64,000 nucleotides of DNA from an uncultured Pelagibacteraceae bacterium. Lineage in GTDB: Bacteria > Pseudomonadota > Alphaproteobacteria > Pelagibacterales > Pelagibacteraceae. The notes below the pieces were generated by a model, which ran no database searches, had not been told where the DNA came from, and saw nothing but the letters and a program-made list of their open reading frames with translations. The stretch spans positions 1 to 64,000 of the forward strand of contig CACFBW010000002.1 of NCBI GenBank assembly GCA_902564565.1. The letters are read 5' to 3'. The position numbers and the translations under genes were made by a program. This document shows, in pieces, positions 32,159 to 42,691 of this stretch. The first letter of the stretch is position 1, and every line of letters starts with the position of its first letter.

Positions 32159-32236
32159 ACTATAATTTTGACGTGCCGGAGTATATTCAGCAATTAATGG
32201 GTGTCAATACAACTTAATTCGTATAAATTTGGAAAA

Positions 32237-33559
32237 ATGAATATTTATAAAACAAATGTAAATAAGTTATTCTATATCTTTTTAACAATTCATTTAACTG
32301 TCTGGACATTGATTCCTACGCTAACAAATCAAAATTTACCTTTAGATACTATTGAAGCTTTAGCTTGGGGAAGCAATTTAGACTGGGGGTTTAACAAACA
32401 CCCTCCAGCTAGTGCTTTTTTTGTAGAAATTTTTTATCAGGTTTTTGGAAGCAATGATTGGGCATATTATTTTTTGAGTCAAATTTTTGTAACATTCTCT
32501 TTTTTTATTGTTTGGAGATTTTCTTATGAATTTTTAGGAAATAAAAATCTTTCCTTGTTTTCAGTATTATTGCTTGAGGCAATTTATTTTTATAATTTTA
32601 CATCACCCGAATTTAACGTAAATGTTTGTCAACTACCTTTCTGGACATTAACCGTTTATTATTCTTGGAAACTTTATAGTAAAAAAAAAGTTGATATTAA
32701 AGATTTTGTATTACTAGGAGTTTTTGCCGCACTTGGTTTTTTATCCAAATATCTATTTATTTATTTGTTAGTCTCGATCGACTTATTATTTTTTTATTTA
32801 ATATTTATAAAAAAAGACAGAAAATATGATTTTAATTATTTAATACCTTTAATAGTTTTTGTTGTTTTGTTAATTCCTCATATTATTTGGTTAAAAGATA
32901 ATGATTATGTTGCTATTACTTATGGTCTTCATAGAACAGGTTTAATTGAAATAAATTTTATCAACCACTTAAAATATCCGCTCATATTTTTAGCTAAACA
33001 AATTGGAATACTAATTCCATTTTTTATATTAAGCTTATTTTTAATTTCTAAATTTAAATTTAGCTTAAAATTAATTGATAAAAAACTACTTTTTTTATTA
33101 GCAATCAACATAGCACCAATTATTTTAATGTTTCTAACTTCATTAGTTTTAGGTGCTAAAATAAGAACTATGTGGATGACTCCATTTTATTTATTTTTTG
33201 GAACTTTGCTACTTTATATTTTTCAAAAACAAATAAATTTAAAAAAAATTAAAAATTTTTATATCACATTCATGTTTTTATTTTTACTTTCGCCAATTAT
33301 TTACGCTTATATTTCAATTAATCAAACAGATAAGAGAACGGATTATCCAGGAAAAGAAATAGCATCAAAAGTTCAAAAAAAATGGAATTTGGAATTTAAT
33401 GAACCAATTAATGTTGTTTTGGGTAATGAATGGAATGCTGGAAACTTATCATATCACTTAAAATCCAGACCAGTCTGGGAAGGGAAGCTGGATAAAAGAA
33501 AGCTGGACAGTTATAATATGTTTATTTGTATAGATAATATTTGTGTAGGAAATAAATGA
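32237..33559 (+). CDS. GT39/PMT-family membrane glycosyltransferase
   Basis: This is an integral membrane protein with about ten hydrophobic segments and a short polar C-terminus. The first loop contains LPLDTIEALAWG and WGFNKHPP, resembling the acidic catalytic loop of polyprenyl-phosphate-sugar transferases (ArnT, GT39 and GT83). It probably moves a sugar from a lipid carrier onto lipid A, a glycan or a protein. The frame opens earlier with GTG at 32201; I prefer ATG 32237, which has GGAAAA upstream. It is coupled by ATGA to a 41-codon gene and then to a GT2 gene. Confidence 0.78.
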   Translation: MNIYKTNVNKLFYIFLTIHLTVWTLIPTLTNQNLPLDTIEALAWGSNLDWGFNKHPPASAFFVEIFYQVFGSNDWAYYFLSQIFVTFSFFIVWRFSYEFLGNKNLSLFSVLLLEAIYFYNFTSPEFNVNVCQLPFWTLTVYYSWKLYSKKKVDIKDFVLLGVFAALGFLSKYLFIYLLVSIDLLFFYLIFIKKDRKYDFNYLIPLIVFVVLLIPHIIWLKDNDYVAITYGLHRTGLIEINFINHLKYPLIFLAKQIGILIPFFILSLFLISKFKFSLKLIDKKLLFLLAINIAPIILMFLTSLVLGAKIRTMWMTPFYLFFGTLLLYIFQKQINLKKIKNFYITFMFLFLLSPIIYAYISINQTDKRTDYPGKEIASKVQKKWNLEFNEPINVVLGNEWNAGNLSYHLKSRPVWEGKLDKRKLDSYNMFICIDNICVGNK

Positions 33560-33685: not shown

Positions 33686-34552
33686 ATGAAAGTTAAAATA
33701 TTAATACCTATTTATAATGATTGGCGCTCAGTTTTTGAACTTTTAAAAAATATTGACCAAGAAATTAATAATATTAATGCTGAAATATCCGTATTAATTA
33801 TTAATGATGGATCAAACGAAGAAAAAGAGGAAGTTCCTGAATTCAAAAATATAAAATCAATTAAAATTATAAATATGAAAAAGAACAAAGGACATGCACG
33901 ATGTAACGCTGCAGGTTTAAAGCATATATTTGAAAATGAAGATTTTGATTATGTTATTCCAATGGATGGAGATGGTGAAGATCGAGCAGAAGAAATAAAA
34001 TTATTAATAGAAAAATCTAAAGATTATCCTAGCCATGTAATAACAGCAAATAGAGTAAAAAGATCAGAAGGTTTATTTTTTAAATTTTGTTATGAAACAC
34101 ACAAACTTTTAACTTTAATATTTACAGGTCAAAACATAAAGTTTGGTAATTTTACTTTACTGCCAAAATCAATTGTTGAAAAAATGGTTCATGAAAAAGC
34201 AACTTGGAATAGTTTTTCCGGCTCATTATGCAAAGTATCAAAAGATAGGAAGTCAATTTCTTCTATACGCGGAACAAGGTTTTTTGGTCCGTCAAAAATG
34301 AGTTTTTCAAATTTAATTCAACACTCATTATCCATAATTTCTGTTTTTAAATTTACTTGGCTGGCAAGATCTATAATATTTTTATTAGTTTATTGTTACT
34401 TTATTTCAAATTTTATTTCTTTTATTACTTTAATACCAGTAGTTGTGATCATAGTGTTAAATGCAATGATTTTTACACTTTCTGCAAGAGAAAATTTAGA
34501 TGAATACAAAAATTCTTTATCAAATATCTCTAATATTGATACCATCAAATAA
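33686..34552 (+). CDS. GT2 family glycosyltransferase with C-terminal membrane segments
   Basis: The N-terminal GT-A domain has ILIPIYNDW at residues 5-13, LIINDGSNEE as the nucleotide-sugar strand, and the PMDGDGEDR segment with the metal-binding acidic residues near 96-100. Two hydrophobic segments near residues 230-275 would anchor it. It resembles dolichyl-phosphate mannose or undecaprenyl-phosphate glucose synthases, which charge the lipid carrier used by GT39-type enzymes such as the one just upstream. Together they could form a two-step glycan-modification unit. The acceptor is unknown. Confidence 0.85.
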   Translation: MKVKILIPIYNDWRSVFELLKNIDQEINNINAEISVLIINDGSNEEKEEVPEFKNIKSIKIINMKKNKGHARCNAAGLKHIFENEDFDYVIPMDGDGEDRAEEIKLLIEKSKDYPSHVITANRVKRSEGLFFKFCYETHKLLTLIFTGQNIKFGNFTLLPKSIVEKMVHEKATWNSFSGSLCKVSKDRKSISSIRGTRFFGPSKMSFSNLIQHSLSIISVFKFTWLARSIIFLLVYCYFISNFISFITLIPVVVIIVLNAMIFTLSARENLDEYKNSLSNISNIDTIK

Positions 34553-34615
34553 TGAAAAAGATTTAATTAGCTTTTTTACTTTAAAAATGATTTAAAATAA
34601 AAAAAATTAATTTTT

Positions 34616-35818
34616 ATGTACTTCATCAATCCTTTTAAAGGTTTAAGACCAACTAAAAAAAATGCATCATCAGTCGCTGTTTCTAGCACCGATCATTTAT
34701 CGAAGGATTCTCTTGTAGACCATAAAAACAATAATTCGTGGAGTTATTTGAATGTTTTTGGTGAAAAAGATAGCTCTAAATCTAAAGAACAATTTGAATT
34801 AATGAAAAAAAAATCAATCATAAAAAAAGATAAAAAAAATTCATTTTATATTTACAAAATATCAACAAGAGATCATTCACAAGTAGGGATAGTTGGGACT
34901 GCAAAACTTTCTGCTTATGACAATTTACATATACGAGGTCATGAAGAAATTTTTTTTGAAAGATCTCAAAAAAGAATGAAACAAATGGACAATTTAAATG
35001 CACAAATAGGTCCTATATATGCTGTTTACCCCGACAACAAACAACTTAATGATTTGGTAGAAAAAGAGTTAGTTAATTCTCCTGAATACTCTTTTGAGGG
35101 CATGGACGGAAGCAAGCATGAGATGTGGATTGTTGATGATGAAAATAAAGTTTTAAAAATATCTGATTTATTTAATTCTATAAATAGGATTTATATTGCG
35201 GATGGACACCATAGAATGGATGCATTATTAAAACTCTCAAAATTTAAACAACATAAAAACCACGATCATACTGGAAAAGAATTATATAATTATTTTATGA
35301 TAGCAATTTTTCCAACAAGCCAGGCAAGAATTCTTGATTACAATAGACTTATAAAAGATTTATATGGATATTCATCTTCAGATTTTATTAAGGAAGTTAA
35401 AAAAAAATTTAAAGTAGAAAAGCAAAGTTCTTCGTACAAACCTGAAAAATCTCAAATATTTGGAATGTATTTAAAAAAACAATGGTATTCTTTGGAACTT
35501 AAAGAAAAACCCCATCAGAATTTATTTCATATTATTAATTTAGACATAAATTTATTGCACTACTATTTATTGGAACCCATTTTGGGAATTGGGGATCCTA
35601 GATACGATAATAGAATTGATTTTTTAGCAGGTTTTCATGGATTGGAAGGTATTGAGAAAAAAGTAGATTCGGGCCAAGCAAAAGTTGGCTTCGCTTTATT
35701 TGCCACTCAAATGGAAAACGTCATAAGTTTTGCGGATAAAAAATTAAATATGCCACCAAAATCAACTTGGTTTGATCCTAAACCTTTAGATGGTTTAGTA
35801 GCATATGATTTCGAATAA
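34616..35818 (+). CDS. DUF1015 family protein
   Basis: This conserved protein of unknown biochemical role has the DUF1015 features: an N-terminal FKGLRP-type opening, IRGHEEIFFERSQKRMKQMD near residues 102-121, the motif ADGHHRMDALLKL near 196-208, and the C-terminal lid ending in STWFDPKPLDGLV. At 400 residues it is typical. It lies 120 bases upstream of serC-serA. DUF1015 genes commonly occur next to serine-biosynthesis genes, so a role in phosphoserine or serine metabolism is likely. The DGHHR motif recalls ParB-fold free-serine kinases, but I have not shown homology. Confidence 0.85.
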   Translation: MYFINPFKGLRPTKKNASSVAVSSTDHLSKDSLVDHKNNNSWSYLNVFGEKDSSKSKEQFELMKKKSIIKKDKKNSFYIYKISTRDHSQVGIVGTAKLSAYDNLHIRGHEEIFFERSQKRMKQMDNLNAQIGPIYAVYPDNKQLNDLVEKELVNSPEYSFEGMDGSKHEMWIVDDENKVLKISDLFNSINRIYIADGHHRMDALLKLSKFKQHKNHDHTGKELYNYFMIAIFPTSQARILDYNRLIKDLYGYSSSDFIKEVKKKFKVEKQSSSYKPEKSQIFGMYLKKQWYSLELKEKPHQNLFHIINLDINLLHYYLLEPILGIGDPRYDNRIDFLAGFHGLEGIEKKVDSGQAKVGFALFATQMENVISFADKKLNMPPKSTWFDPKPLDGLVAYDFE

Positions 35819-35938
35819 AATTTATTATTTTCTTTTAAAATTATAGTGCTGCGTCAATTCTTCATTATTTATTGCTAAAAAATATATATAAAAAAAATAG
35901 TGACATATTTTTAAAAAACAATATATCAAAACGAACTA
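35819..35938. promoter_or_regulatory. AT-rich leader upstream of serC
   Basis: This 120-base gap between the DUF1015 gene and serC is over 80% A+T. It probably carries a promoter for serC-serA. I see no strong hairpin, no clear ribosome site and no convincing -35/-10 pair. A structured serC leader is known upstream of serC in some alphaproteobacteria, but I cannot recognise it here. Confidence 0.3.
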
Positions 35939-37093
35939 ATGGAAAAACCAAGCACAAAACCTAAAAATCCAAATTTTTCAAGCGGGCCATGCTCTAAACG
36001 CCCTGGTTGGAGTATGGATGTTTTAAAAAATTCCCCAATAGGAAGATCACATAGACATAAAGTTTGCAAAGAAAAGCTGAATGAGGCGATAGTTAAATCT
36101 AAGAAAATTCTACAGTTACCGGATTCTTACTTAGTTGGGATAATGACGGGCTCAAATACTGGTGCTTTGGAATCGGCCATGTGGTCTCTTTTGGGTTGTA
36201 AAGGCGTTGATGTTTTAGCCTGGGAAAATTTTGGAAAAGATTGGGTAATAGACATACTTGAACAATTAAAAATAAAAGATGTAAACAGTCATGTAACTGA
36301 TTATGGAACTCTTCCAGATTTAACAAAGGTAAATTTCAAAAATGATGTAATTTTTACGTGGAATGGAACAACTGCTGGCGTGAGAATTCCTAATGGTGAT
36401 TGGATACCTGAAGATAGAGAAGGCTTAACAATTTGTGATGCTACATCAGGAATTTTTGCTATGGATATAGATTGTAGTAAGCTTGATGTCATAACATGGT
36501 CTTGGCAAAAAGTCTTAGGAGCAGAAGCTGCTCATGGAATGGTAGCATTATCTCCACGTGCAGTTCAAAGACTTGAAACTCATACTCCTTCTTGGCCAAT
36601 TCCAAAACTATTTAGATTGGCAAATAAAAAAAAATTAATAAAAGGTATTTTTGAAGGTGGTACAATCAATACTCCTTCAATGATTTGTGTTGAGGATGTA
36701 TTGGATGCTTTAAAGTGGGTTGAGTCTGTGGGTGGCACAAAAGGACTAATAAAAATTTCAAGCGACAACTTACAAATTGTAGAAGAGTGGATAAGTAAAA
36801 GTGATAATTTTAAATTTATGTGTGAAGATAAGAAATCAAGATCTTCAACAAGTATTACAGTGTTAATTAAAGATGAATGGTTTACAAAATTTAATGAAGA
36901 AGAACAAAGAGCAGTATTAAAAAAATTATTTTCACTCCTAGAAAAAGAAGGAGTAGCTAATGATATTAACGGTTATCCTAAAGCACCTCCTAGTATAAGA
37001 ATATGGGGCGGATCAACTGTGCAAAATAGTGACATCAAAGCACTATTACCTTGGATTGATTGGGCGTATAATTCAATAAAAAATAATGCCTAA
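35939..37093 (+). CDS. serC: phosphoserine aminotransferase
   Basis: SerC makes O-phosphoserine from 3-phosphohydroxypyruvate and glutamate with PLP. It starts with the KPNFSSGPCSKRPGW-like N-terminus (residues 9-24). The PLP-binding segment WSWQKVLGAEAAHG places the Schiff-base lysine near residue 190. The length (384) and GGTINTPSMICVEDV fit the longer alphaproteobacterial-type SerC. Its last 8 bases overlap serA, so the two serine-pathway enzymes are coupled. Confidence 0.95.
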   Translation: MEKPSTKPKNPNFSSGPCSKRPGWSMDVLKNSPIGRSHRHKVCKEKLNEAIVKSKKILQLPDSYLVGIMTGSNTGALESAMWSLLGCKGVDVLAWENFGKDWVIDILEQLKIKDVNSHVTDYGTLPDLTKVNFKNDVIFTWNGTTAGVRIPNGDWIPEDREGLTICDATSGIFAMDIDCSKLDVITWSWQKVLGAEAAHGMVALSPRAVQRLETHTPSWPIPKLFRLANKKKLIKGIFEGGTINTPSMICVEDVLDALKWVESVGGTKGLIKISSDNLQIVEEWISKSDNFKFMCEDKKSRSSTSITVLIKDEWFTKFNEEEQRAVLKKLFSLLEKEGVANDINGYPKAPPSIRIWGGSTVQNSDIKALLPWIDWAYNSIKNNA

Positions 37094-38021
37094 GGTTTTA
37101 ATTTCAGACTCAATGAGCAGTGTTGCTCAAAAAATTTTTGAGAAAAATAATATTTCTGTTGATGTAAAAACTGGCTTATCAGAAGAAGAAATTATTAAAA
37201 TTATTCCGGAGTACGATGGAATGGTTGTTAGATCAGCTACAAAAGTAACAAAAAAAATAATTGAAGCTGCAAAAAATTTAAAAGTAATCGGAAGAGCTGG
37301 TGCTGGTGTTGACAATATAGATGTGCCAACAGCCAAAGAAAAAAATATGATTGTTATGAATACCCCTGGTGGAAATGCCAATGCAACAGCAGAACATGCA
37401 TTTGCATTAATCATGTCAACTCTAAGAAAAATTCCTTTTGCCAATGAGACAACTCATAAAGGACTATGGGAGAAAAAAAATATTAAAGGTACCGAACTTT
37501 CAAAAAAAACTTTAGGTATAGTTGGCTTTGGAAATGTAGGTGTGAGATTAAGTAATCTTGTTAAAGGTTTTGATATGAAAATATTGGTTAATTCGAAGTC
37601 ACTAGAATCTAGAAAAAAAGACTATCCACATGTAGAAAATGTAAGCTTCGATGAATTGATAAGCAAAAGTGACATTATAAGTTTTCATTGTAAGGCCCCT
37701 AAAGATGGCAAGCCAATGATTGCTAAAGAGCATTATAAAAAAATGAAACCTACAACTTATATAATTAATGCTGCTAGAGGTAACATTGTTGATGAAAAAG
37801 ATTTAAATGATGCGCTTAATGAAAACCTAATTGCTGGAGCAGCAGTAGATGTTTTTTCAAAAGAACCAGCTAAAGAAAATATTTTATTCAACAATCCAAA
37901 AGTTATTTTAACTCCACATATAGCAGCATCTACAACAGAAGCATCAATGGTTGTAGCTCAAATGGTAGCCAATCAAATATCAGATTTTTTATTAAAGGGT
38001 GTCAAATTAAATACTGTTTAG
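37086..38021 (+). CDS. serA: D-3-phosphoglycerate dehydrogenase, short form without ACT domain
   Basis: SerA oxidises 3-phosphoglycerate in the first step of serine synthesis. The D-2-hydroxyacid dehydrogenase core is complete: GRAGAGVDNIDVPTA, the NAD loop GIVGFGNVG near residues 143-151, the NAARGNIVDEKDL segment and the catalytic His in LTPHIAASTTEA. At 311 residues it ends after the catalytic domain. It lacks the intervening and ACT domains of the 410-530-residue enzymes, so serine feedback through an ACT domain is not expected. Overlap with serC supports SerA over another hydroxyacid dehydrogenase. Confidence 0.9.
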   Translation: MPKVLISDSMSSVAQKIFEKNNISVDVKTGLSEEEIIKIIPEYDGMVVRSATKVTKKIIEAAKNLKVIGRAGAGVDNIDVPTAKEKNMIVMNTPGGNANATAEHAFALIMSTLRKIPFANETTHKGLWEKKNIKGTELSKKTLGIVGFGNVGVRLSNLVKGFDMKILVNSKSLESRKKDYPHVENVSFDELISKSDIISFHCKAPKDGKPMIAKEHYKKMKPTTYIINAARGNIVDEKDLNDALNENLIAGAAVDVFSKEPAKENILFNNPKVILTPHIAASTTEASMVVAQMVANQISDFLLKGVKLNTV

Positions 38022-39211
38022 TGAAAAAGTTATTATTAATAATATTAATATTAATTTTCACTTCAAATTCTTTTTCTTTTGCAAATTTTAAAGAAATAAA
38101 AAAAAAAGCTGAGGTCAATAAACCTGGCATAGTTTTTCCGATACCTAAAAATTTGAGAAGATGTCAAACAAAACTATATGTAAGTCCTGAGCTTAACAAA
38201 ATTCCTACGTTGTTAGAAGTCAAAGCGCCTGTAGGTTATGGTTTGGACGATAGATATGATTATGCAAACAGTAGATTTTCAAATTTTAGTTTTCCTTGTG
38301 GTGGCGGAAATGTTGATGCGTGCAAGTATGTAAAAAATGTAATATTAAGTTGGGCGAAAGCAAATGCTGCTAAAAGAACAGGACCATCAGACCACGAAGG
38401 CAGACATTGGAATGATACTCTTACTGTAAATTTATATATTGCAGCTCCATGGATAGCAGCCTATTCTTTTGCAAAGCAAGTTATAGAAATACCAGATGAG
38501 GAAGACAAAATAATAAAAGACTGGTTTAAAAAAATTGTAAAAAAAAATACTCATTTAATGTATGGTAAAACTTATAATTATGGAGGAGCGACAGGCACTC
38601 CAAAAAGAGCTCATAACCACGCTTTATCTTCTGCAGTTGCTCATATGTCATTGGGAATTTTATTAAATGATAAAAAAGAATTTAGAAAAGCTTTTAAAAA
38701 CTATGAAGGTGCGATTAAATATCAGAGAAAAGATGGCAGTCTTCCTATTGAAGTGAGAAGAGGTGGAAGAGCTATGTTTTATCAAGGTAGAGCCATGACC
38801 GCTTTAGCCGTAATAGCTATTATTGCTGAAAATCAAGGTTACAATATTTGGGATTTAGACTTCAAAGGTAAAAACTACCATAATCTAGTTAAATTTTTTA
38901 TAGATTTTACTGAAAATAACGAAATTGTATTTAAATATGCAAAAGAAAACAGATCACCTGGACCAGCTAAAAATTATAAAGTTCAAGATCTCAAGTCGAA
39001 CACAGGAAGTCATTGGGGGTGGTTGTATGCTTATACATCAAGATTTCCTGATCATAAAAATATTAAACGATTGAAACAATGGTCTTTGAATAAAAGTGAA
39101 CTTAATTCTTATCAAAGCAATATTGTTTATCAATATCTCAACATAGGAAAAAAAGGTTTCGGCTCTGCCTCCTGGACGGTCGTTGAGCCAAATTGCCATT
39201 TTATTAAGTAG
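38021..39211 (+). CDS. secreted alginate-lyase-like protein (PL5/AlgL superfamily)
   Basis: A signal peptide of about 20 residues (basic KK, then a leucine/isoleucine core, cleavage near SFA-N) indicates a periplasmic or exported protein. The rest looks like an alpha/alpha-barrel polysaccharide lyase. Asn199-His200 ([12 protein letters not shown]), Arg247 and Tyr254 (RRGGRAMFY) keep the order and spacing of the catalytic Asn-His, Arg and Tyr of the Sphingomonas A1-III alginate lyase. [14 protein letters not shown] and AENQGYNIW are further PL5-like segments. The start is GTG overlapping the serA stop by one base. The substrate may be alginate or another uronate polymer. Confidence 0.8.
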
Positions 39212-40487
39212 AAGCTTTTATTGTTGGTAGAGAATAAAAATCAGCTGTATCTATTTTTGAATAATGTTGTCTTTTTGAATTCCATTTTTTATGAATGCCA
39301 GCACTTGCAAGACTTAAAGTTGATCGACCATATCGATAATTAGTATTATCAATAGATTTCATTAAGTTATTTATTTTTTCATCTTTTTCTGAAGAAAATA
39401 AATTTTTTTCATTATTTGAATCTGACAAATGAGACAGCATCACTCCAGCTTTTTGATATCTATAACCATTTTTAAAAATAGTTTCTAAAATAGAAATCGC
39501 AACTTTTACAATTTCAATGCTATTATTAGTAGCTATTGGTAAGTCTATTGTTTTTGAATTAGAGTAAAAACCATATCGATTTTGAAAAGGACTTGTTCTA
39601 ATAAAAACTGTTATTGATTTTGTAACTAAAGATTCGGATCTAATTTTTTCTGAAGCATTCAAAGAATAACCAGCTATTGCCTCTTTTAATTCTTGAAAAT
39701 CTTCTACTCTTTTTCCAAATGAACGCGACACAACACAGCTCTTTCTTTTAGAACTTGTTGTTTCTAAGCCAATACAAGAAATACCTTTAAGTTCCATTGC
39801 TGTTCTTGAGCTTAAAACATTAGAGCTTTTTTTAATCCATGTATTGGATTTATTTTTTAATTGTTTTGCGTTATAAATTCCATTTTGATGATAAAATTTT
39901 GTTAGTTGTTTACCAACTCCCCACACGTCGTTAATTTCTACTTTTTCTAATATTGGATCAATATTTTCAACTCCTATCAAGCTAACAACTCCAGATTGTT
40001 TTTTTTTCGCTATATGATTTGCAACCTTGCTTAAGGTTTTTGTTTTTGCGATACCAATACTGGTTGGTATACCAGTCCATTTTAAAACTATACTTCTGAT
40101 TTCTTTGCCAATATCTTCCGCTTCGTTATCAGGAAAATTTGACAAATCTAGAAAAGCTTCATCTATTGAATAAATTTCTATTTCAGAATTAAATCGTTTA
40201 AGAGTTCTCATTACTCTTCTGGATAAATCTCCGTACAAAGAATAATTTGATGAAAACACCTGAACATTATTTTTAATAATAATATTTTTTTCCTTGAAAT
40301 ACGGTTCTCCCATTTTAATCCCTAAAGCTTTTGCTTCTGTTGATCTTGAAATAATGCAGCCATCATTATTAGATAAAACAACCACTGGTTTATTTCTCAA
40401 CTTAGGATTGAATAGTCTTTCACATGAAACATAGAAAGAATTACAATCAACAAGGGCTATTTTTTTAGTGCGTCGAGTGAATGACAT
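39204..40487 (-). CDS. umuC: DNA polymerase V catalytic subunit UmuC
   Basis: This is a Y-family translesion polymerase. The palm motifs [16 protein letters not shown] (residues 11-26) and [10 protein letters not shown] with Asp109-Glu110 supply the metal-binding acids. [18 protein letters not shown] is the finger-palm segment, and the helix-hairpin-helix region follows. At 427 residues it matches UmuC length. It overlaps umuD by 23 bases, and an SOS operator controls the pair. Confidence 0.95.
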
Positions 40488-40860
40488 AGGTTACAACTCC
40501 CCAGATAAAAACATTTGAATCTTCATTCATAATAATTTTATCTTCAGTGTTATTTGATCCTGATGATAAAAAGTTTTGCTCTTTTGATTTAATAAAATTT
40601 TTAACAACTAATTCGTCATGAACATTTGCAACTACGGTAGAGAAATTTTTGGGTTCTAAACTTCTATCGACTATCAATAAATCCCCATCATAAATACCAA
40701 CATCGGTCATAGATTTTCCTTGCACTCGGATAACAAAGGTTGCAGGAACATTTTTTATTAGGTGAACGTTAAGATCAACATCTTCTTCTATGTAGTCTGT
40801 TGCAGGAGAAGGAAATCCAGCTCCGGCTTTATGTAGGTAAAATGGTACAGTCAATTTCAT
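40465..40860 (-). CDS. umuD: UmuD, self-cleaving S24-family subunit of DNA polymerase V
   Basis: UmuD is cleaved with RecA help to UmuD', which joins UmuC. The predicted cleavage site is Ala14-Gly15 in AGAGFPSPA. The Ser-Lys dyad is Ser50 (GKSM) and Lys87 (HDELVVKNF). At 131 residues it is near the E. coli length of 139. The ATG directly abuts the LexA box, so there is no room for a Shine-Dalgarno site and the message has a very short leader. Confidence 0.95.
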
Positions 40861-40875
40861 GTTCTTGCTTTGTTC
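40861..40875 (-). promoter_or_regulatory. LexA operator (SOS box) of umuDC
   Basis: The plus strand reads GTTC-ttgcttt-GTTC, a perfect match to the GTTC-N7-GTTC direct repeat used by alphaproteobacterial LexA. It overlaps the expected transcription start of the umuD promoter and ends at the base before the umuD ATG. LexA bound here would block initiation. Confidence 0.88.
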
Positions 40876-40878
40876 TAA

Positions 40879-40907
40879 TTAATACTCTAATTATTAAATA
40901 TAGTCAA
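40879..40907 (-). promoter_or_regulatory. sigma-70-type promoter of umuDC
   Basis: On the minus strand a -35 TTGACT (40902-40907) is separated by exactly 17 bases from a -10 TATTAA (40879-40884). Initiation would fall about 7 bases further, inside the LexA box and roughly 12-15 bases before the umuD ATG. Confidence 0.85.
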
Positions 40908-41021
40908 TAGGTTGTATTTTGAGTCTGTAAGTGAATCGAAAAGGAATCAAAACGTGAACATTAATAGCTGTGTTTTGTTACATTGTGGATAACTTCAACT
41001 AAGGGTAGTCTGCAAAAAATT

Positions 41022-41393
41022 ATGAAAAAAAAATTAACATGCCATTGTGGAGGAGTAGAAGCGTTAGTTAATGTTTCTGAAAAAGGATTTGAAAAGGTTT
41101 TGCGTTGTAACTGTTCTATCTGTAAAAAAAAAGGGTACATTATAGGAGTTCTTGGGCCAGATGATTTTAAATTAGTTAAAGGAGAAGATCTTTTAACCCT
41201 TTATCAATTTTATACAAAAACTGCTCAACATTATTTTTGTAAAGTTTGTGGCATACACACACATAATAGACCACGAATGAATCCAAAAATATATGGAATA
41301 AACATAGCTTGCGTTGAAGGTGTTAAACCATTTGAAATAGTCAATGTTCCGGTTAGCGATGGAGAAAACCACCCTTTAGATCAAAAAAAATAA
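41022..41393 (+). CDS. GFA/CENP-V zinc-binding family protein
   Basis: This small protein has the GFA fold named after glutathione-dependent formaldehyde-activating enzyme. Zinc-site cysteines are visible: Cys7 and Cys9 (CHCGG), Cys29, Cys31 and Cys34 (RCNCSIC), and Cys73 and Cys76 (FCKVCGIH). The frame opens at TTG 40983, but ATG 41022 gives the usual start just before CHCGG. The length is 123 residues. Biochemical roles in this family are poorly established. It is divergent from umuD and overlaps the next gene by one base. Confidence 0.88.
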   Translation: MKKKLTCHCGGVEALVNVSEKGFEKVLRCNCSICKKKGYIIGVLGPDDFKLVKGEDLLTLYQFYTKTAQHYFCKVCGIHTHNRPRMNPKIYGINIACVEGVKPFEIVNVPVSDGENHPLDQKK

Positions 41394-42691
41394 TGAAAAA
41401 AATATTTTTAACTTTTTTATTCACAATTATTAGTTTTAATTCTGCGCAAGCAATATCTTTATCGGATGCACTATTAGAAGCTTATAAAAATAATCCAGAG
41501 TTAAATGCTGAAAGAGAAAATTTAAATGTTTCTGAAGAAGATTTTAAAATTTCAAAAAGTGAATTTTTACCTAGCGTAACTATTTCTGGGTCTAAAAGTA
41601 GCGAAGACACAAGCAAGAACACAGATAGATCAGGTGCAAATTCAGCTGCGACTGATGTTAATCCAGTAACTCAATCTGTGTTAATTGAACAAAAACTATT
41701 TCAAGGATTTGCGGGCATTGCAGGATATGAAAAAAATAAAATTGGCTTAAGTTTAGCTCAAGCAAAATTTTTAAAAAAAGAACAAGATATTTTATTTAAA
41801 GCTGTAGAAGCATATACCGGTCTTGCTTTTGCTAAGGAAAAATTAGAAATTAATTTAAGCAACGTAAATTTGTCAGAAAGACAAGTTGAAACAGATAGAT
41901 CAAGATTAGAAAGAGGACAAATAACTTTAGCAGACGTCGCGCAATCCGAGTCTTCTTTAGCAGAGTCGCAAGCAAAATTAACAGAATCTCAAAACGAAGT
42001 ACTTACATCAAGGTTGGAGTATGAAAAAATAATTGGACCGTTAGAAAATATAGATAATTTCAATAATAATTATGAACTTAACTTTGAAGTTCCATCATCT
42101 TTAAATCAAGCAATTGAAATCTCTAAAAATAACAATCCAGATCTAACTATAGCTAAGTTAGAATATGAACAATCTGAAAAAGATGTAACAATTGCAAAAT
42201 CTGAACTTTCACCTTCAGCCACACTATCTTTAGAGTCTTCAAAAACAGATGATTTAAGTGCAACCGTTGATGAAAGGGATAAAGAAACAGTTAAAGCAAC
42301 TATATCTTGGCCTCTTTTTAAGGGAGGTAAAAATTTTGCAGAGATAAACAAAAGCAAAAGTTTAAAAAATAGAAAAAAATTACTATTTGATTATGCCCAT
42401 AAATCAAATGATACTAATGTTGCGAGCGCATGGGCAAACTTACAGTCCACTGAAAGCTTATTAAATTCGGTAAAATCTCAAGTGAAAGCAGCAGAAATTG
42501 CAAACGAAGGAATAAGTGCTGAATACGAGTCTGGACTCGGAAGATCAACATTAGACCTAATCCAGTCTAATACTTTACTTTTAAATTCAAAAATAAGTTT
42601 AGCTGATTCTGAAAGAAACTATCTTTTAGCTAAGTTCAATCTGCTTAAATCTCTAGGTTTATTAAACAGCGACTATCTAAAAATTCAATAA
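41393..42691 (+). CDS. tolC: TolC-family outer membrane efflux protein
   Basis: This is an outer membrane channel for type I secretion or RND efflux. The signal peptide ends at SAQA near residue 20. Two related halves of long alpha-helices follow, with AYKNNPELNAERENL near residue 30 and NNPDLTIAKLEYEQ in the second half, the classic internal repeat. SWPLFKGG is the beta-strand segment of the second half. At 432 residues it is typical. No inner-membrane partner is next to it, so it may serve several pumps. Confidence 0.92.
   Translation: MKKIFLTFLFTIISFNSAQAISLSDALLEAYKNNPELNAERENLNVSEEDFKISKSEFLPSVTISGSKSSEDTSKNTDRSGANSAATDVNPVTQSVLIEQKLFQGFAGIAGYEKNKIGLSLAQAKFLKKEQDILFKAVEAYTGLAFAKEKLEINLSNVNLSERQVETDRSRLERGQITLADVAQSESSLAESQAKLTESQNEVLTSRLEYEKIIGPLENIDNFNNNYELNFEVPSSLNQAIEISKNNNPDLTIAKLEYEQSEKDVTIAKSELSPSATLSLESSKTDDLSATVDERDKETVKATISWPLFKGGKNFAEINKSKSLKNRKKLLFDYAHKSNDTNVASAWANLQSTESLLNSVKSQVKAAEIANEGISAEYESGLGRSTLDLIQSNTLLLNSKISLADSERNYLLAKFNLLKSLGLLNSDYLKIQ

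Follow-up and report, generated by a model that had tools for sequence, protein, structure and literature searches.

A predicted PL5-type exported lyase carried in a flexible genomic island of SAR11

An open reading frame from an uncultured Pelagibacteraceae bacterium probably encodes a PL5-type exported polyuronate lyase that forms part of the cargo of a flexible island lying between a GT39-GT2 glycosyltransferase pair and umuDC. The gene lies in what we call the window, that is, the whole 64,000-nucleotide stretch of contig CACFBW010000002.1 that was analysed. It is a known kind of enzyme (PL5-like) in an unexpected host: SAR11 bacteria, which are among the most abundant in the ocean, are as a rule modelled as feeding on small molecules. 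The gene order in the window is dksA, GT39, GT2, DUF1015, serC, serA, lyase, umuC, umuD, and the features discussed below are as follows.

32201..33559, forward strand: membrane glycosyltransferase, GT39/PMT-like (PF13231); with GT2 it forms the left border of the island
33686..34552, forward strand: GT2 glycosyltransferase (PF00535), bordering the variable stretch on the left
34616..38021, forward strand: DUF1015-serC-serA module, a separate island cargo (serA product of 311 amino acids)
38019..38023, forward strand: TAGTG junction, with one base common to the serA stop and the lyase GTG
38021..39211, forward strand: PL5-like (PF05426) lyase, probably exported, 396 amino acids, GTG start
38021..38083, forward strand: signal-peptide-like N-terminus, approximately residues 1–21, from inspection and hydropathy
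39204..39211: convergent 8-nt overlap of the 3' ends of lyase and umuC
39204..40860, reverse strand: umuC-like (PF00817 IMS, PF11799) and umuD-like (PF00717 Peptidase_S24) genes, which close the island on the right

The first-pass annotation had proposed a secreted, alginate-lyase-like enzyme here, and most of what it said of the protein itself held up. The open reading frame exists, its GTG start sharing its G with the final G of the serA TAG, and its beginning resembles a signal peptide by inspection and hydropathy; the product is probably exported to the periplasm or outside. The Pfam profile PF05426 (Alginate_lyase) matches at an E value of 8.3e-32, far beyond chance, with 111.2 bits against a gathering cut-off of 22.2, and agrees with the sequence comparison, in which A1-III (1.2e-9, phmmer), AlgL and Smlt1473 lead the relatives of solved structure, a result that a family profile confirmed. 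The NCBIfam models of the AlgL/PL (PRK00325) type score far below their cut-offs (53/366, 37.9/711, 37.1/429 and 24.4/743 bits), which points to a protein related to PL5 enzymes but not to an equivalog of AlgL. The putative catalytic residues N199, H200, R247 and Y254 are present at the positions given and align, with the spacing claimed, with N191-H192, R239 and Y246 of A1-III. Close homologues show no loss of them: together with Y73 they are invariant in 81/81 sequences (the window and 80 named loci), as are Cys93, Cys101 and Cys392, while Cys48 is found in 80/81 with a gap in one. Five remote SAR11 relatives all retain R247 and Y254, whereas N199 or H200 is altered in four of them; this set omits L032, whose start is misplaced, and L007, which is the same gene as L051.

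Matches were found in 39 of 297 genomes of the order, many of them incomplete, the window's genome included. Thirty-four of these carry an orthologue, the 33 other than the window's at 63–79% identity, and five carry remote relatives at 25–26%. The 80 named loci were kept out of 99 confirmed in a scan of named contigs, and all are titled Pelagibacteraceae, Pelagibacterales or Pelagibacter ubique; since the scan patterns were derived from SAR11, it says little about relatives elsewhere. In the wider class, any match was seen in 9/287 genomes other than G000 and G062, and PF05426-like proteins of other Alphaproteobacteria (G555, G454, G584) show 31–34% identity to the window lyase, with those of G555 and G584 sharing its RNNH ... 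R ... YQ pattern. Against 10 of the 11 homologues compared, dN was 0.10–0.22 and dS 1.2–1.8, and purifying selection on the lyase is supported; the eleventh, that of AG-439-C02, is too close for a dN/dS judgement (dS 0.013).

The check by structure prediction returned an alpha/alpha-barrel model whose nearest relative is A1-III. The AF2 model was built from 29 sequences and is of moderate confidence (pLDDT 66, pTM 0.71), with 84 residues under pLDDT 50, among them 237–250, which include R247. VIA-align places A1-III at the top (Z 25.6, 3.1 A, 311 residues aligned, 18% identity) and lists only PL5 lyases in its first 22 rows (Z 21.5–25.6), above every epimerase; Foldseek also ranks A1-III first, and its first 13 rows are A1-III, AlgL, Smlt1473 or PanPL. 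Further VIA-align scores were 22.6–22.8 for AlgL, about 22 for PanPL and Smlt1473, about 19 for PL17 and about 18 for PL38, with human dermatan sulfate epimerase at 15.3 and sugar 2-epimerases at 12–13. A PL5-type fold is thus supported by the model with moderate confidence.

A1-III of Sphingomonas sp. A1 (PL5; PDB 1QAZ/1HV6/4F10/4F13), of which PDB variants carry mutations at H192 and Y246, has a like fold but is only about 18% identical, and the window lyase differs from it in lying within a flexible SAR11 island; the conservation of Cys48, 93, 101 and 392 is a feature of the SAR11 set, within which it was compared. AlgL (PL5; PDB 4OZV/7SA8) shares the fold and the motif, and its gene lies with those for alginate polymerisation and export, whereas the window lyase does not reach any of the four NCBIfam PL5-type cut-offs given above and has GT39, GT2, variable cargo and umuDC in place of recognised alginate-biosynthesis neighbours. 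Smlt1473, whose PDB entries are titled multi-functional, and PanPL (both PL5) are alike in fold and motif region but remote in sequence, at 15–17% identity.

The predicted lyase activity rests on the family, the residues and the model. A periplasmic or secreted enzyme of this kind would accommodate a uronate chain in its barrel cleft. There Asn199 and Arg247 would neutralise the carboxylate found at subsite +1, the C5 proton would go to His200 and/or Tyr254, and Tyr254 would protonate the leaving oxygen, so that beta-elimination would leave a 4,5-unsaturated end. We infer these roles from PL5 relatives; a passage of PMC9655155 describes Y246 of A1-III as a critical catalytic residue, and one of PMC12088678 describes a His that alginate lyases of families PL5, 15, 17, 38 and 39 have in common. 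The targets would be uronate-bearing glycans beyond the inner membrane.

The lyase sits tightly between its neighbours, and this tight packing is a trait of the lyase module regardless of the gene upstream. In 77 of the 80 named loci the lyase lies no more than 50 nt from the preceding gene, the distance is exactly -1 or -4 in 52/80, and at the 3' end the lyase runs precisely 8 nt into umuC in 69 of the 71 named loci measured. These spacings recur across varied neighbours and therefore belong to the module: the upstream gene is ppc (PEP carboxylase) in 35 loci, GT2 in 24, serA in 7, c16 (without Pfam assignment) in 6, TauD in 5 and another gene in 3, while the downstream gene is umuC in 70/80. 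On a lyase tree made by a quick method, with row L137 on a long branch, no fewer than 16 changes of upstream gene are required. The one-base overlap with serA is seen again in 7/80 named loci, none on the window's contig and one with a lyase 99% identical in protein to the window's, so an assembly chimera is an unlikely source of the junction. The GT39-GT2 pair is also present at islands without a lyase; in L209 and L210 GT2 is followed directly by umuC, as judged from open reading frames of at least 90 amino acids. These observations support the view of the lyase as one cargo module in a flexible island of SAR11 bounded by GT39-GT2 and umuDC.

The suggestion that the lyase might be tied to the DUF1015-serC-serA unit fared less well, and functional coupling to serine synthesis is largely refuted by the neighbour, junction and exchange data. 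Were the lyase to serve serine metabolism through its product or through regulation, co-transcribed with DUF1015-serC-serA, the single shared base, found in the window as well as in the 7/80 named loci, would be explained, and the serA-linked lyases do fit a single origin on the tree (one change), with a support of only 52. However, serA stands upstream of the lyase in just those 7/80 loci, and tight gene overlap in streamlined genomes is by itself no proof of functional coupling. A serC match accompanies the lyase orthologue in only 1 of the 34 orthologue-bearing genomes (1/297 overall) and is missing from the other 33, and L135 is one further locus in which the lyase precedes DUF1015-serC-serA. 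Conversely, serC was found in 61/297 genomes of the order, 11 of them within the genus, and of these 11 the window's genome alone has a lyase match, the other 10 having none. Six of those 10 carry the serine genes at the island and four carry them elsewhere. In G073, G283 and G223 serA joins umuC directly, without a lyase, and in G262, G316 and G232 the lyase is replaced by a 279-amino-acid open reading frame that matches PF14099 (Polysacc_lyase) at about 1e-21 in all three and starts after serA at a TAGTG junction identical to the lyase's. With the divergence data given below, these findings make a role in serine metabolism highly improbable, and the lyase-serA junction is supported as positional, not functional.

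Comparison with AG-439-C02 supports exchange of the lyase without the serine genes. As a proportion, synonymous differences between the two amount to 0.012 for the lyase, 0.104 for umuC and 0.233 for umuD, against 0.252 in serA, 0.416 in serC, 0.496 in DUF1015 and 0.390 in the part of GT2 that was compared; in short, 0.012 in the lyase as against 0.25–0.50 in the serine genes. Nucleotide identity is 96–100% in 500-nt segments from 37750 to 40499 and 82–94% within 34250–37999, climbing towards the border. Such low divergence in the lyase relative to the serine genes would be expected after a recent exchange that had the lyase at its centre and extended into umuC. In the comparison with G073, the flanks of the absent lyase are 92% (serA side) and 94–98% (umuC side) identical to the window, and identity falls to 73–84% over 34700–36199 and to 80–84% over 40700–41699. 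Carriage by phages or plasmids was considered and rejected: one protein scan of viral contigs yielded no relative of the lyase, nor did phages or PHROGs, and six plasmid matches were remote, at 21–29% identity.

As to what the lyase would do for the cell, we consider it about evenly balanced whether it serves feeding on dissolved algal or bacterial polyuronates, and we rank this role above one on the cell's own glycan because other island cargo includes metabolic or nutrient genes (urease, Amt, TauD, PEP carboxylase). KDPG aldolase is the final step of the classical uronate route, and PF01081 had no match in 297/297 SAR11 genomes, with the control matching 8/14 known genomes. The classical route was accordingly set aside, and feeding would need a different one. 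The same result lends something to a housekeeping, AlgL-like lyase that clears or trims a uronate glycan made by the cell itself, perhaps built with GT39-GT2, in that it speaks against classical-route catabolism; the position of GT39 and GT2 at the island border and the presence of AlgL among the nearest folds also fit this alternative. Nevertheless, the pair evidently does not need the lyase, being present without it in L209 and L210 among others, the neighbours run on Pfam include no recognisable polymerase or export gene, and part of the other cargo is metabolic, so that we regard trimming of a self-made glycan as rather doubtful.

An alpha/alpha-barrel protein of this family need not be a lyase; it might instead be a hydrolase, a binding protein or a uronyl C5-epimerase, which would likewise abstract the proton. 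Related barrels do include the human dermatan sulfate epimerase and the sugar 2-epimerases at the Z scores given above, and four of the five remote SAR11 relatives have a change at N199 or H200. Yet the full set of four residues is kept throughout the close homologues, and the PL5 lyases occupy every one of the leading VIA-align rows ahead of any epimerase, which leaves a non-lyase function improbable. The preferred reading thus remains a PL5-type exported lyase, for which feeding is the favoured role.

The PL5-like gene is one of two lyase types that occupy this island. A PF05426- or PF14099-like gene was present in 78 of 140 Pelagibacter loci examined: 33 had the orthologue, 50 a PF14099-like gene, 5 of these both, and 62 neither. 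The two types appear to avoid each other (both in 5 loci, the orthologue alone in 28, a PF14099-like gene alone in 45, neither in 62; Fisher p 0.006), a value that is indicative only because the genomes are related and were chosen by umuC similarity to the window, among those listed, and not at random. The tally combines 80, 20 and 6 loci with 34 lyase-bearing ones (33 with the orthologue and one with a remote relative) and leaves out G222, one of the 34 orthologue genomes; most of the 80 tally loci are 8.3 kb, some are under 4 kb at contig ends and several lyase loci measure 4.2 kb, lengths at which a second lyase may escape notice. The PF14099-like genes were called by a single-pass HMM, which gave 83 matches, none to proteins of the window. 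Nine island representatives passed the Pfam cut-off, L274 fell just under it (29.2 against 29.9 bits) and L253 had no match. Like the window lyase, the island PF14099 lyases have a signal-like start by eye, the same chromosomal slot and TAGTG after serA, but they belong to a different Pfam family, whose fold is a beta-jelly-roll.

We tentatively suggest that the GT2-umuC stretch acts as a lyase port, into which many lineages may plug exported lyases from unrelated families (PF05426, PF14099), singly or several at a time, by recombination; streamlined SAR11 cells, commonly regarded as monomer feeders, would thereby tune the clipping of anionic polysaccharides. Should the PL5-like and the PF14099 proteins prove active, cleavage of such polymers could be within the reach of many Pelagibacter lineages, with close relatives differing in the enzyme they carry. 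The presence of unrelated lyase families in one SAR11 slot is the part most worth following, and the lyase gene is small, single and open to testing by expression. A literature search of titles and abstract openings found no polysaccharide lyase island in SAR11; PMC10322874, a count of Pelagibacter CAZymes, has no occurrence of PL5, and the main texts of PMC2217521 and PMC7318151, which describe SAR11 variable regions or islands, mention neither umuC nor a lyase.

The serine module is itself a curious cargo, as it occupies the island though serC is uncommon in the genus (11 members in the 297-genome draw). The serB model TIGR00338 had no match in the window's genome, which is 85% complete, with the control matching 14/14 known genomes, and DUF1015 might therefore supply the missing serB step. 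No paper linking DUF1015 with serine was found in the literature search. Passages of PMC10030771 describe subclade I isolates as lacking a complete serABC and some subclade I/II MAGs and SAGs as having the complete set. A 453-amino-acid PLP-dependent enzyme (PF00291) lies just upstream of DUF1015 in L079 (11943–13304, reverse strand) and L085 (6884–8245, forward strand); an open reading frame of this length precedes DUF1015 in 7 of the 11 loci L077–L087 and is absent from the window.

The remaining cargo is diverse, most labels coming from one Pfam-tested representative and BLAST grouping. Pfam-tested cargo includes urease genes, PEP carboxylase, an Amt-SpoIIE protein, TauD, DUF1800 with DUF1501, and an FAA hydrolase with a DctP protein. 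The urease genes were tested in L217 (8206–13041, forward strand), and about 20 loci have the same run of open reading frame lengths. The Amt-SpoIIE protein of L037 (6649–8775, reverse strand) is an ammonium transporter fused to a SpoIIE-type phosphatase domain, 708 amino acids in all, and similar open reading frames recur in islands. A remote PF05426 lyase and PF14099-type proteins have a C-terminal tail in common, with 52–59% identity over 54 amino acids, in L051 (8951–10252), L043 (11066–12376) and L046 (12437–13678), all on the forward strand; the tail is DUF4189-like below the cut-off, and its sequence suggests a common targeting or anchoring tail. The DUF1800-DUF1501 pairs often stand beside several PF14099-like proteins (L050, L051, L053, L220 and several of L294–L304), with a c5 protein that matches PF05426 weakly (0.07) and GH10-like or FG-GAP proteins also nearby, an arrangement that resembles a small polysaccharide cluster.
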